DNA of 64,000 nt from Devosia lucknowensis. GTDB lineage: Bacteria; Pseudomonadota; Alphaproteobacteria; Rhizobiales; Devosiaceae. The stretch's first letter is position 1. Each line of letters opens with the position of its first letter. The stretch covers positions 1,984,001-2,048,000 of the forward strand of contig NZ_FXWK01000001.1 of the NCBI RefSeq assembly GCF_900177655.1, given 5' to 3'. Of the stretch, positions 55,911 through 59,770 are shown one piece after another. A program made the position numbers and the translations under genes. The notes under the pieces were generated by a model. It was not told where the DNA came from. It did no database searches and saw only the letters and a program-made list of their open reading frames with translations.

Positions 55911-56702
55911 TCAAATGCCGCCGTACCAGTCGTAGCCGTTGTCCTCCCAGTAGCCGCCCTTGCCCCGGCCGAAGGGGGTGAGGTCGTCGACCAGTTCGAT
56001 CGTGTGCAGGTACTTTGGCTGCTTGTAGCCCAGCGCCCGCTCGATCCTCAGGCGGATCGGAGCGCCATTGCTGACCGGCAGAACCTGATCATTGAGGCCG
56101 TAGCTCAGGATCGACTGCGGGTGGTACGCATCCACCAGGTCGGAGCTGGTATAATAGAGCACGTCGCCCGATAGCGTCCGCTGGATATTGTCGTAGCAGT
56201 GGTAGACGGCGAAACGCGCGCCGGGCTTCACGCCAGCCTGATCCAGCACCGGTCCCAGGGGCGTACCGGTCCATTTGGCGATGCAGCTCCACCCCTCGAC
56301 GCAGTCATGCCGGGTGATCTGCGTCCGGGCCGGCATGTTGCGCAGCTCCGCCAGCGAAAAGCTGACTTCCTTGTCCACCATGCCCTTGATGGTCAGGCGG
56401 TAGGGCTCGAATTCGGCCTGGCGCAGGAACATGTATTCGGCCGTCGTCGGCTCGGTCGAGCCATTGGGCTTCATCCCCTGCCGGATTTCGCTCTCTGCAT
56501 ATTCGCGTGCAAGGACTTCGTCGCCGATCAGCGCCCGCTGCGCCCGATAGGTCAGCACATTGGCGCTCTCGATGGCCTCGCGGATCGGATTGCCGCGCTG
56601 CCCGAGGAAGTCGAACTGATTGCAGCCGCTCAGTGCGAGGGACGACCCCACCGCTGCGGAGCCGAGGAGAAACTTGCGGCGATTGACGATGAGCCGGCTC
56701 AT
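55911..56702 (-). CDS. Sulfite oxidase-fold molybdopterin oxidoreductase, exported
   Basis: The 263-residue protein has a Tat signal, VNRRKFLLGSAAVG, followed by a possible lipobox LSGC27, so it may be an exported lipoprotein. The molybdenum ligand is probably C134 in TRHDCVEGWSC, which matches the sulfite oxidase/YedY fold, and the C-terminal GRGKGGYWEDNGYDW is typical of small stand-alone members. Substrate is unknown; sulfite, sulfoxide or methionine sulfoxide reactions occur in relatives. It overlaps the cytochrome b gene by four bases, so the two form one enzyme with membrane electron transfer. Confidence 0.86.
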   Translation of the reverse strand: MSRLIVNRRKFLLGSAAVGSSLALSGCNQFDFLGQRGNPIREAIESANVLTYRAQRALIGDEVLAREYAESEIRQGMKPNGSTEPTTAEYMFLRQAEFEPYRLTIKGMVDKEVSFSLAELRNMPARTQITRHDCVEGWSCIAKWTGTPLGPVLDQAGVKPGARFAVYHCYDNIQRTLSGDVLYYTSSDLVDAYHPQSILSYGLNDQVLPVSNGAPIRLRIERALGYKQPKYLHTIELVDDLTPFGRGKGGYWEDNGYDWYGGI

Positions 56703-57547
56703 GGCTTGTCCCCTTCCTGGGTCGGCGTACCCGGGCTCGTGCGGTACCAGCCTGTCAGCATCGAGCGCAATTCGTTGAACGGCCCGGCCAGCAGCACCAT
56801 CGCGATATGCACGATGAAGAACAGCACCAGCAGAGCCATGACGATGAAATGAATGGTTCGAGCCGTCTGCCGGCCGCCGAAGACATCCAGCAGCCAGGGC
56901 CATGCCGCATCCATGCCCGGACTCATGGTGAGGCCTGTCAGGATGATCAGCGGAAAGAGAATGAAGAACACGGTGAAGTAACTGAGCTTCTGCAGCGGCG
57001 AATAGCGGCGGCCATGGTGCAGGCGGAACCGCGCGTGATCGAGCGCGTCGCGCGGCAGGCCGGAGAGGTCTGCGCCCTGAGGAATGATGTCCCGCTTCAT
57101 ATGGCCGTTGATCAGGCTCGCCAGGAACCACACGAACAGGGCCGCAACGAAGATCCAGCCGAAAAAGAAATGCACCACGCGTCCCGTGGCAAGGTCGCGA
57201 TAGGACGGGATCGTGACCGCACCGGGAAAGCCGGTATATTGCGGCTGCTCTGCCGAACCACTCATCCCCAGCACGCCGGTCGTGTCGAACGTATTGCCGA
57301 ATACCGTCGTCTGCCCGCGCGGTCCGTTTGGAGTGTTGATCGCACCGATTTCGAGAATGGCATTGTCGAACTCGAAACCCGACTGCTGACCGATGTAGAG
57401 CGCGGGATGGGCATTGAAGATCTGTAGTCCCGACAGCAGCAGGAAGAAGAGGCAGATGGCCCAGGTCCAATGCGTCAGACGGGTCCAGATGGACTGGCGA
57501 TACACCAGCGGGCCGCGCTGCGGCGGCAGGCTCTGTTGGTCTGTCAT
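56699..57547 (-). CDS. Membrane cytochrome b subunit
   Basis: The 282-residue protein has four or more membrane helices and the motif IWTRLTHWTWAICLFFLLLSG at its N-terminus, with histidines in helix 1 and later helices (HFFFGWIFVAALFVW, HFIVMALLVLFFIVHIAM) that can hold two b hemes. It belongs with diheme cytochrome b subunits of formate dehydrogenases and thiosulfate reductases. It would link the exported molybdoenzyme with the quinone pool. Its promoter is a predicted ECF site at 57650-57675. Confidence 0.88.
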   Translation of the reverse strand: MTDQQSLPPQRGPLVYRQSIWTRLTHWTWAICLFFLLLSGLQIFNAHPALYIGQQSGFEFDNAILEIGAINTPNGPRGQTTVFGNTFDTTGVLGMSGSAEQPQYTGFPGAVTIPSYRDLATGRVVHFFFGWIFVAALFVWFLASLINGHMKRDIIPQGADLSGLPRDALDHARFRLHHGRRYSPLQKLSYFTVFFILFPLIILTGLTMSPGMDAAWPWLLDVFGGRQTARTIHFIVMALLVLFFIVHIAMVLLAGPFNELRSMLTGWYRTSPGTPTQEGDKP

Positions 57548-57649
57548 GGTCTCCCCTCCCGGCCGAATGCTGGGCCCACTTGCAGTAACGCTAACGCAAC
57601 CCGGTGCTGCTCGCCATCACGTCGATGTTATTGCAGCACGTAACTTTCA

Positions 57650-57675
57650 TTCGTTCTCCCGGTGCCGATCGTTAC
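57650..57675 (-). promoter_or_regulatory. Predicted ECF-type promoter for the molybdoenzyme operon
   Basis: On the minus strand GTAACG (57675-57670) is followed by a 16-base spacer and CGAA (57653-57650), matching the pattern reported for Caulobacter SigF promoters (GTAACC-N16-CGAA). The transcript would start about 95 bases before the cytochrome b gene. The same element, with identical spacing, occurs on the plus strand nearby. Confidence 0.7.
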
Positions 57676-57702
57676 CGCCGCTCGCTTTTTTGTCTGCGGC
57701 GT

Positions 57703-57728
57703 GTAACGTCGAACCACAGGGCCGCGAA
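57703..57728 (+). promoter_or_regulatory. Predicted ECF-type promoter for the sigma factor operon
   Basis: GTAACG (57703-57708), a 16-base spacer and CGAA (57725-57728) form an ECF-type promoter 16 bases before the sigma factor start codon. Matching elements on both sides of the gap argue for autoregulation and control of the divergent operon. Confidence 0.7.
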
Positions 57729-57744
57729 TGGAGTTGAAATAAAG

Positions 57745-58287
57745 GTGGATGGGATCGAACAGCGACTGCGAGAGCTGATGCTCGCTGCGTTTGACGGCGA
57801 TACATCTGCCTATCGGGCGCTGCTTGCCGAACTGGCGCGCTACTTGGGCCCCTGGTTTGCGCGACGCCTGGGGCCCGCTCACGCATCGCATGCGGAGGAT
57901 CTCGTGCAGGAAACCCTGCTTGCCGTCCATACGCGGCGCATGACCTATGATCGAAGCCGCCCCTTCACGGCTTGGTTGCATGCAATCGCGCACCACAAAT
58001 ATGTAGATCATGTGAGGCGCACGGCCATCCGTCCCACGGTTCACCTAGAGGACGATGCCCCCGTCTTTGCCGCCGACGACAGCGCCAACGCCGCTGACCG
58101 CCGAGACGTCGACGCAGTACTCGCCACCGTATCGGACCGTACCGCCGATCTTATTCGTCAGACCAGGATTGAAGGCGCCAGCGTTGCCGAGGCCGCTGCG
58201 CGCCACGGCATCAGCGAAACAGCTGCAAAAGTATCAATTCACCGCGGGATCAAGTCGTTGATGGGACGGTTCGGGGGCGACAAATGA
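57745..58287 (+). CDS. ECF-type RNA polymerase sigma factor
   Basis: The 180-residue protein has the sigma-70 region 2 (HAEDLVQETLLAVHTRR and FTAWLHAIAHHKYVDHVRR) and region 4 (TADLIRQTRIEGASVAEAAARHGISETAAKVSIHRGIKSL) of ECF sigma factors. Because the next gene is NrsF-like, it should be a SigF-type ECF factor, which in Caulobacter answers to heavy-metal and oxidant stress. The GTG at 57745 is preferred because the promoter ends just upstream; GGAG lies about 11 bases before it. Its own gene carries the matching promoter. Confidence 0.9.
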   Translation: MDGIEQRLRELMLAAFDGDTSAYRALLAELARYLGPWFARRLGPAHASHAEDLVQETLLAVHTRRMTYDRSRPFTAWLHAIAHHKYVDHVRRTAIRPTVHLEDDAPVFAADDSANAADRRDVDAVLATVSDRTADLIRQTRIEGASVAEAAARHGISETAAKVSIHRGIKSLMGRFGGDK

Positions 58288-58922
58288 CCGACGCCCTGAT
58301 CGAAAAATTGGCAAGCGATCTCACACCCGTCCCCGCACGGGCCATGGAGCGACGGCTCCTGATGGCCCTTTTGACTGGATTGGCGCTGAGCGTGGTCCTG
58401 GTCGTCGTGCTGGTCGGCATGGTCATGGGTCGACCCTTTGGCGGCGCATTTGGTGGATCCATGTTCTGGATCAAGCTCGCCTACACACTGGCGTTCGGCC
58501 TCATCGGCGTTGCCACAGCACCTGCCCTTTCGCGTCCTGACGGCAGGATCATGTGGCCTCTGGTGGGCGCCGCGATCCTGGTGCTCGCGGCGCTGGGCGC
58601 GGGTGGCATGCTTTGGATGCGTGCCGATTTTCCCATGCCTATGCTGATGGGGGCCACGGCACTGGTATGCCCCTGGCTGATACTCGTCGTCAGCCTGCCC
58701 TTGCTTGGCGTGCTGATCGTTGCCATGCGCCGCTTTGCTCCACGCTCGCCAGCCATGGCCGGATTTGCAGCAGGGTTGCTATCCGGCGGTTTCGGCGCAG
58801 CCGTTTATGCACTCTACTGCGCCGAGACCGGCATGCTCTTCATGGCACTTTGGTACTCGCTCGGCATTGCGCTCACCGCCGGGCTCGGGGCCCTGCTGGG
58901 TCAGCGTTTGTTGCGCTGGTAG
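58284..58922 (+). CDS. nrsF: NrsF-family anti-sigma factor (DUF1109)
   Basis: The 212-residue membrane protein has six hydrophobic helices beginning at about residue 25 and a short cytoplasmic N-terminus, MTDALIEKLASDLTPV, which is the usual sigma-binding part. DUF1109/NrsF proteins hold ECF sigma factors at the membrane and release them under stress. It overlaps the sigma gene by four bases. Two conserved cysteine positions are visible, C163-like in TALVCPWL and in YALYCAETG. Confidence 0.87.
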   Translation: MTDALIEKLASDLTPVPARAMERRLLMALLTGLALSVVLVVVLVGMVMGRPFGGAFGGSMFWIKLAYTLAFGLIGVATAPALSRPDGRIMWPLVGAAILVLAALGAGGMLWMRADFPMPMLMGATALVCPWLILVVSLPLLGVLIVAMRRFAPRSPAMAGFAAGLLSGGFGAAVYALYCAETGMLFMALWYSLGIALTAGLGALLGQRLLRW

Positions 58923-58958: not shown

Positions 58959-59660
58959 TCACTGCTCGGCCAGCGCCTCTGCATAGCGGATCGAGACCTC
59001 GTCCCAGTTCACAACGTCCCACCACTTGCTGAGATATTCGGCACGACGGTTGTTGTACGTAAGATAGTAGGCATGTTCCCAGACATCGTTGCCGATAACG
59101 GGAGTGCCCTTCACCTCGGCGACATCCATCAGCGGATTGTCCTGGTTCGGCGTGGTCGTGATTTCGAGTTCGTTGGCATCGTTGACGATCAACCAGACCC
59201 AGCCTGAGCCGAACCGCGCAGCGCCAGCATCCTGAAACGCGGTCTTGAAATCGTCCATGGAGCCGTAGGAGGCCTCGATTGCTGCGGACAGTTCCGCGCT
59301 CGGTTCTCCGGACTCGGCCGGCGGCCCGATGATTTCCCAGAAGAACGTGTGGTTCCAGTGCCCGCCGGCATTGTTCCGGATGGACGTCGCATAGTCGGCC
59401 GTGTTGGCCAGGATGTCCTCGAGCGCCACGTCGGTCAGGTTGTCGTCACCTTCCGCAGCAGCCTTGTTGAGGTTGTCGACGAACGACTGATGATGCTTGC
59501 TGTGATGCAGCTCCATCGTTTGCGCGTCGATCACGGGCTCGAGTGCATCATAGCCGTAGTCGAGGTCGGGCAGAGTGAATGGACCGTCGGTCTGGGCGAC
59601 GGCAGGCAGCGAGAAGGCGGCAATGGTCATGGCCGCGATCGCGGGTATGAGGGCTTTCAT
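58959..59660 (-). CDS. Fe/Mn superoxide dismutase, exported
   Basis: The 233-residue protein has the Fe/Mn SOD ligands: His in MELHHSKHHQSFVDNL, His in NNAGGHWNHTFFW, and Asp/His in DVWEHAYYLTY near the C-terminus. Unusually it has a signal peptide (MKALIPAIAAMTIAAFSLPAVAQT), so it works in the periplasm. The second ATG of the pair (59660) has better spacing from AAGGAG. It stands alone, next to the ECF sigma locus, and a long hairpin precedes it. Metal identity, Fe or Mn, cannot be told from this. Confidence 0.93.
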   Translation of the reverse strand: MKALIPAIAAMTIAAFSLPAVAQTDGPFTLPDLDYGYDALEPVIDAQTMELHHSKHHQSFVDNLNKAAAEGDDNLTDVALEDILANTADYATSIRNNAGGHWNHTFFWEIIGPPAESGEPSAELSAAIEASYGSMDDFKTAFQDAGAARFGSGWVWLIVNDANELEITTTPNQDNPLMDVAEVKGTPVIGNDVWEHAYYLTYNNRRAEYLSKWWDVVNWDEVSIRYAEALAEQ

Positions 59661-59770
59661 CATCAGGGCTCCTTGAATGGGCATGGGGGCAGAACCCCAC
59701 CCACCCGGAGCGGTTGCGATCACGCCGATGACGTTTTTGTTGGTCGTGTGCCGGCATCCCGGCAAGGCAC

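Follow-up and report, generated by a model that had tools for sequence, protein, structure and literature searches.

In a 64,000-nucleotide stretch of the Devosia lucknowensis genome (contig NZ_FXWK01000001.1, positions 1,984,001 to 2,048,000; hereafter the window), two operons stand back to back, one encoding an extracytoplasmic function (ECF) sigma factor with an NrsF-type anti-sigma factor and the other a cytochrome b with a molybdoenzyme. The host genome comprises 3.71 Mb in two contigs. On the plus strand, the ECF sigma gene (57745..58287, GTG start; ECF16/SigF type, with Sigma70_r2 and r4_2 domains and a match to NF009191) overlaps by 4 bases the gene for a membrane anti-sigma factor of 212 residues (58284..58922; Pfam PF06532, 184 bits). 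On the minus strand, the gene for a prokaryotic cytochrome b561 of 282 residues (56699..57547; Pfam PF01292, 76 bits) likewise overlaps by 4 bases the gene for an Oxidored_molyb protein of 263 residues (55911..56702; Pfam PF00174, 103 bits), an MsrP-like molybdoenzyme whose closest named relatives are from Devosia. The start codons of the two operons are separated by an intergenic gap of 197 bases (57548-57744), which carries two predicted SigF-type promoters of the form GTAAC-N17-CGAAT, one for the cytochrome b/molybdoenzyme operon (57649..57675, minus strand) and one for the sigma/nrsF operon (57703..57729, plus strand).

An initial annotation had described this gap as holding mirrored GTAACG-N16-CGAA promoters with equal 16-base spacers, and that description holds. 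The motif occurs at 57650-57675 (minus) and 57703-57728 (plus), facing outward, and these are its sole matches in the window, where 0.04 are expected by chance and none of 100 shuffled sequences contained two. Freeing the sixth base returns the same two matches (0.18 expected; two or more in 3 of 100 shuffles). The sixth base of the annotated motif, G, is not conserved: among 98 distinct strict sites, comprising all those in relatives' loci around the operon (two loci of other genera included), C stands there in 67% and G in 23%, and 95% have a T directly after CGAA. Given the variable sixth base and the conserved T, the signal is better written GTAAC-N17-CGAAT. The annotation's comparison with the Caulobacter SigF promoter, GTAACC-N16-CGAA, agrees with the published description (PMC3511200). 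Judged by sequence, GTAAC-N17-CGAA promoters precede both the sigma operon and its putative targets, as expected of the ECF16/SigF-NrsF group.

The proteins themselves fit this assignment. PF04542, PF08281 and PF06532 all exceed their cut-offs, as expected of an ECF sigma-NrsF pair, and the sigma factor scores 171 bits against NF009191, exactly the cut-off of 171. The anti-sigma factor scores 136.5 bits against the NCBIfam NrsF equivalog NF042994 (cut-off 300) and is a member of the broader Pfam family only. It contains 16 methionines and only two cysteines, Cys129 and Cys179, the pair conserved in ECF16 anti-sigma factors, with numbering equal to that of OsrA and AbcS. OsrA, the six-helix partner of the ECF16 sigma factor EcfF in Bradyrhizobium, also has only Cys129 and Cys179, of which the first is required for retention of the sigma factor and the second for the response to peroxide (PMC3420878). 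The expected start of the sigma transcript, at about 57734, lies only about 10 bases from the GTG start codon, and translation may therefore begin at the ATG at 57778 instead; a parallel shift of the start codon has been described for EcfF (PMC3420878).

Across the host genome, GTAACN-N16-CGAA has 11 matches, six of which fall inside open reading frames. Five are correctly oriented and at most about 160 bases upstream of a gene start, namely those of sigF, the cytochrome/enzyme operon, an MsrB with a twin-arginine translocation (Tat)-like signal, a second MsrB and an MsrA. As the genome holds two MsrB and two MsrA genes in total, a strict site precedes three of the four; by chance, five strict promoter matches would include three of the four Msr genes with a probability near 5e-9 (3,600 genes assumed). 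The fourth Msr gene encodes an MsrA with a signal-like N-terminus and is preceded by a GTAACT-N16-CGTA variant ending about 35 bases before its start, the one match to a looser pattern that was considered. Ownership of these sites by a second NrsF system was ruled out, since a single NrsF was found in the genome. The content of this predicted regulon points to methionine-sulfoxide repair. The initial annotation had made the exported molybdoenzyme a direct target of an envelope-stress pathway; its place as a predicted target is kept, but the inclusion of MsrA and MsrB genes makes the pathway better named repair of methionine oxidation, caused by hypochlorous acid (HOCl) or reactive oxygen species, than general envelope stress.

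The molybdoenzyme carries a twin-arginine signal, a lipobox-like LSGC motif (Cys27) and the active-site motif HDCVEGWS (Cys134). In an alignment of 11 enzymes (that of the window and ten diverse relatives), R8, R9, C134, V135, E136, G137 and W138 are invariant, a C-terminal WED motif is common to all and the lipobox cysteine is present in 10, and the enzyme is probably lipid-anchored. MsrP enzymes are marked by a Tat signal and by a cysteine within a CVE-x-WS motif, and both are present here. By sequence, the nearest solved structure is 1xdq, catalogued as a bacterial sulfite oxidase, which we take to be E. coli YedY/MsrP; its active site reads CVEAWS where the window's enzyme has CVEGWS. The E. 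coli MsrPQ system likewise pairs a CVE[AG]WS molybdoenzyme with a membrane cytochrome, and the window's pair departs from it in an enzyme that scores below the MsrP cut-off, a b561-type PF01292 partner and a probable lipoprotein anchor. Among the best 80 of 591 named loci, many of them from Hyphomicrobiales, a b561-type cytochrome adjoins the enzyme in 78, and NrsF is adjacent in 10 as found by tblastn with the window's NrsF, which distant homologues may escape; the enzyme pair thus extends more widely than its link to SigF. We propose that the cytochrome b is the quinol-oxidising partner, and that the molybdoenzyme is most likely an MsrP-like reductase fed by this b561-type cytochrome. The strongest argument for its identity as a methionine sulfoxide reductase is its predicted co-regulation with all four MsrA/MsrB genes. 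The proposal would assign methionine sulfoxide repair as the specific function of a cytochrome b561/molybdoenzyme pair found repeatedly in Hyphomicrobiales.

The same enzyme could instead be a sulfite dehydrogenase, and the regulon one for sulfur or metal stress, as was first proposed for Caulobacter SigF. The two enzyme types share a fold family, and when an AlphaFold model of the molybdoenzyme (built from 11 sequences; predicted local distance difference test score, pLDDT, 66) was used in a fold search, MsrP and sulfite dehydrogenases were inseparable, with sulfite dehydrogenases ranking best; the model was accordingly given no weight as evidence of activity. Furthermore, the Caulobacter homologue is named sulfite oxidase subunit YedY, and SigF there answers to dichromate and cadmium (PMC3511200). 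Against this stand the sequence scores, which favour MsrP (80.3 bits) over SorA (58.3), SoxC (46) and SorT (26.9), the latter three far below their cut-offs of 600, 420 and 570 bits, and the similarity of CVEGWS to the CVEAWS of 1xdq; on these two grounds the sulfite dehydrogenase was rejected as the preferred reading. The membrane cytochrome b partner also argues against it, as does the nature of the three strict-site targets outside the locus, all of them msrA/msrB genes, and we give it only a small chance of being correct.

To follow the sites beyond D. lucknowensis, we searched 151 genomes for NrsF, the enzyme and the site, and inspected the sequence before the cytochrome gene in all 75 genomes of the same genus. 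A strict site is present at the locus in 51 of 53 NrsF-positive genomes and in none of 22 NrsF-negative ones, all of which hold the cytochrome b and enzyme genes. (In one of the genomes the enzyme match spans residues 1-143 only; a genome with an NrsF match of 21.4 bits, under the cut-off, was counted as NrsF-negative throughout; and four of the 22 are less than 90% complete, where NrsF could be absent merely from the assembly.) Strict sites face both directions in 43 NrsF-positive genomes, one direction in eight and neither in two, of which one has near-matches on both sides and the other has its sigma and nrsF genes elsewhere; one NrsF-negative genome has a near-match whose spacer is shorter by one base. 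The two site sequences of one genome of the genus (G060) are identical to those of Devosia aurantiaca. This comparison supports the earlier proposal that the sigma factor regulates its own operon and that of the exported molybdoenzyme, a role that we continue to regard as predicted. Considering only the 68 of the 75 genomes that are at least 90% complete, GTAAC-N17-CGAAT occurs on average 5.58 times per genome in the 50 NrsF-positive genomes versus 1.5 times in the 18 NrsF-negative ones (p 2.5e-9), in contrast to a reversed control pattern (3.62 versus 3.0, p 0.14).

A narrower role for the promoter pair is conceivable, in which the plus site is truly self-regulating but the minus site is incidental to the divergent architecture and the enzyme is mainly under another sigma factor. 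The distance between the divergent -35 boxes, 27 bases here (57676-57702), falls in clusters of 15, 27-28, 45-47 and 52-57 bases among the 43 genomes with both strict sites, and such variation, from 15 to 57 bases, would suit an incidental arrangement, as would the long leader to cytochrome b (128 bases from the -35 box here) and the only partial SigF dependence of Caulobacter CC2748 (PMC3511200). Yet the spacer sequences differ between species while the cytochrome b-facing site recurs, and this site is absent from all 22 NrsF-negative genomes. It is also present, at -153 and -80, in two genomes (G062, and G089 of another genus) where nrsF is located elsewhere. We therefore consider an incidental minus site very improbable. 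Given the clustering of gap lengths, the two divergent promoters may interfere with each other differently in different lineages.

The same pattern is seen at target genes outside the locus. We compared the regions before msrB2 and msrA in 15 of the 53 NrsF-positive and 15 of the 22 NrsF-negative genomes. A strict site precedes msrB2 in 14 of these 15 further NrsF-positive genomes and in none of the 15 NrsF-negative ones, counting one genome (G050) that gave only a paralogous msrB for the msrB2 query. For msrA, where the match of one genome (G006) is split in two, a strict site is found in eight NrsF-positive genomes and a relaxed one in three, versus none of the 15 NrsF-negative genomes. Sites outside the locus were also classified in 17 same-genus NrsF-positive genomes, none of which overlaps with the 15 just described. 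Among the matches listed, 32 of 63 sites precede an MsrA or MsrB gene (64 regions were fetched, minus one outside the position filter), compared with 0 of 12 control sites in NrsF-negative genomes (six from the same genus and six from the family, with order-level matches and one match of the genome of sub-threshold NrsF score left out). Four of the control genomes (G013, G032, G045 and G064) are also among the 15 NrsF-negative genomes of the msrB2/msrA comparison. By eye, 11 of the 14 msrB2 sites (L008:1501-1526 (-) and loci L248-L276) have a CCTATAT element within the spacer, and 11 of the 15 NrsF-negative genomes retain CTATAT upstream of msrB2, with the boxes themselves altered (in G051, for example, from CGAAT to CAAAT). 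This fits a history in which the sigma boxes were lost and msrB2 kept a second, general promoter, a putative element that perhaps overlaps the first.

A quick tree was built from 58 of the 93 enzyme-bearing genomes (50 of the genus and eight of the family), using enzyme/cytochrome sequences; 25 other genus loci and G082, centred on NrsF, were left out, as were nine order-level genomes by choice. Here, well-supported branches require at least 8 changes in NrsF presence, and the best tree has 14. The tree gives the number of these changes, not their direction; we read most of them as losses. The sigma factor and its promoters appear to come and go together, several times, across the genus. That the association between site and NrsF merely reflects the shared ancestry of a few clades is extremely improbable: NrsF absence is indeed clustered on the tree (14 changes versus 19.5 with shuffled labels), but with at least 8 well-supported changes the site tracks NrsF in about 7 of 8 pairs with no common branch and never does the opposite (median p 0.016), and the same pattern holds at the unlinked msrB2 and msrA genes. 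The locus of Candidatus Devosia symbiotica (L291, L183/G053) has an in-frame stop in the enzyme gene and nrsF in pieces, the marks of a decaying copy.

We consider it very likely that the locus combines the control genes with an effector operon of an ECF16 (SigF-NrsF) regulon that serves the repair of oxidised methionine. The gene families, the promoter pair, the regulon sites and their co-occurrence with sigF-nrsF are read directly from the DNA, and for the signal, the release of the sigma factor and the reductase activity we draw on characterised relatives. In the proposed mechanism, NrsF would retain the sigma factor at the membrane until periplasmic oxidants such as HOCl or peroxide alter NrsF, at Cys179 and perhaps at methionines, and free it; this oxidant-triggered release is proposed by analogy, from the same cysteine positions as in OsrA. 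Free sigma factor would then transcribe its own operon and the cytochrome b561/MsrP-like operon, and also the two msrB and two msrA genes elsewhere in the genome. The Tat-exported molybdoenzyme would reduce methionine sulfoxide in envelope proteins with electrons passed from quinol to cytochrome b.

Several observations weigh against this reading. At the level of the enzyme, besides the ranking of the fold search, the score against the MsrP equivalog NF003767 is 80.3 bits versus a cut-off of 207, and the partner is a PF01292 cytochrome b561 rather than MsrQ, with no MsrQ model among its matches; with the cut-off missed and a b561-type partner, MsrP activity is something that we infer. The genome also contains a second Oxidored_molyb match (C1:2176215-2176445, 36.7 bits) with no strict site nearby. 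At the level of the regulon, msrA has no site of either kind in four of the 15 NrsF-positive genomes, and for 31 of the 63 sites in NrsF-positive relatives no Msr gene follows, many of these 31 lying inside open reading frames. Nor is the raw motif count enriched in the host genome, with 11 strict matches versus 34 to the reversed pattern and 69 versus 432 for the looser pattern, and enrichment by genome-wide count was unusable as evidence; of the motif search that the initial annotation had proposed for defining the regulon, what stands is the placement of five of 11 matches before gene starts. Finally, the inducer may differ, as Caulobacter SigF responded to dichromate and cadmium and not to peroxide (PMC3511200).

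Many NrsF-positive relatives encode a small exported protein with DAMAPDAM-like repeats between the promoter and the cytochrome gene, which looks like MrpX/BcrX, the methionine-rich peptides proposed to scavenge hypochlorite by becoming oxidised (PMC4623255, PMC5748585, PMC8315932). A profile built from nine of these proteins matches in 36 of 53 NrsF-positive genomes of the genus. Two of the 22 NrsF-negative genomes also have a match, weak and at another place in each case, and the host genome has none at E 0.01. Compared with the BcrXQP and MrpX-YedYZ operons, the window thus has the MsrP-like enzyme and cytochrome b under a predicted SigF-type promoter but not the methionine-rich exported peptide. 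The spacing agrees: the -35 box lies 128 bases from cytochrome b here, versus 301-568 bases in peptide-bearing genomes with a strict site and 108-176 bases in the others.

Published work on four genera already ties ECF16 sigma factors to methionine sulfoxide reductases or to a YedY-type enzyme (PMC3511200, PMC3420878, PMC8315932, PMC4623255, PMC5748585), and Sinorhizobium RpoE7 is a further ECF16 member. A close parallel in layout is Brucella, where the HOCl-induced BcrS-AbcS system controls bcrXQP and shares an NrsF-type anti-sigma factor with Cys129 and Cys179, (T/C)GTAAC-N17-CGAA promoters and a neighbouring Msr-type operon (PMC8315932). The named Brucella tritici locus has the same divergent layout and site pair, an enzyme 59% identical to that of the window and an MXKDX-like peptide. 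Unlike Brucella, the window lacks a BcrX/MrpX peptide gene, and sites here also precede msrA and msrB, of which msrA goes unmentioned in the main text of the Brucella paper as available to us (PMC8315932). In Azospira suillum, SigF-NrsF controls yedY1 and mrpX, an arrangement (YedY1-MrpX-YedZ1) that likewise places an ECF sigma/NrsF pair over a presumed methionine sulfoxide reductase of the periplasm (yedYZ) in defence against hypochlorite; going by the published descriptions, the two are set apart by the methionine-rich peptide, central there and missing here (PMC4623255, PMC5748585). Bradyrhizobium EcfF uses GTAAC(g,a)-N14-15-(c,t)CG(t,a) promoters and has three of five methionine sulfoxide reductases in its regulon; its ecfF neighbours are hypothetical proteins, with no adjoining molybdoenzyme/b561 operon described in the text available (PMC3420878). 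Caulobacter SigF-NrsF shares the promoter form, found before sigF, CC2748 (YedY) and the DUF2282/DUF692 operons, but differs in that msrA homologues were unchanged and in its inducers (PMC3511200).

This kind of system is therefore already known, and the locus alone is ordinary ECF16 biology; what appears to differ here is the lack of a peptide gene, the inclusion of every MsrA and MsrB gene and the joint turnover of sigma factor and promoters. No paper in the library searched combines Devosia, a sigma factor and methionine sulfoxide. The published ECF16 accounts, in the parts available to us, describe no regulon in which every MsrA, MsrB and MsrP-like gene of one genome has a site in front of it, no peptide-free form and no repeated joint absence of sigma factor and sites. 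The noteworthy part is accordingly the regulon content together with the natural knock-outs across the genus, which provides a natural experiment of complete regulons, peptide-free regulons and NrsF-less genomes in which the wiring and unwiring of a sigma regulon can be traced promoter by promoter. One further conjecture, which we regard as unlikely, would extend the proposed repair regulon to a closed loop, in which periplasmic Msr enzymes repair the methionines of NrsF and the sigma factor is free only while oxidation outruns repair. Without MrpX, repair capacity alone would then set the threshold, and after loss of the sigma factor the promoters would erode at every target as the enzymes move to general promoters. 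Were this true, the genus would record the repeated, traceable dismantling of a whole stress network.

Some minor features of the locus and of other sites may be added. An Fe/Mn superoxide dismutase gene with an apparent export signal by eye (58959-59672, minus strand) converges on nrsF; the window's only two SigF-type sites are those in the 197-base gap. In front of the msrB that carries a Tat-like signal, the GTAAC box shares bases with the TAA stop of the preceding gene, both in D. lucknowensis (L007:1501-1530 (-)) and in several relatives (loci L105, L117 and L141). Among relatives, with protein families named by eye, G024 has a strict site upstream of genes for a small exported cysteine-containing protein and a DUF692-like protein (L154:1501-2797 (+)), an operon that resembles the CC3254-CC3255 targets of Caulobacter. 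In G021 and G027 (L115:708-1424 (-) and L122), a strict site precedes a CcdA/DsbD-like membrane protein, which could possibly supply electrons to exported MsrA/MsrB. In G021 and G043 (L113:1541-2236 (+) and L147:1534-2232 (+)), the gene behind a strict site encodes an exported protein that contains ELFTSQGCSSCPPA and appears thioredoxin-like by eye.

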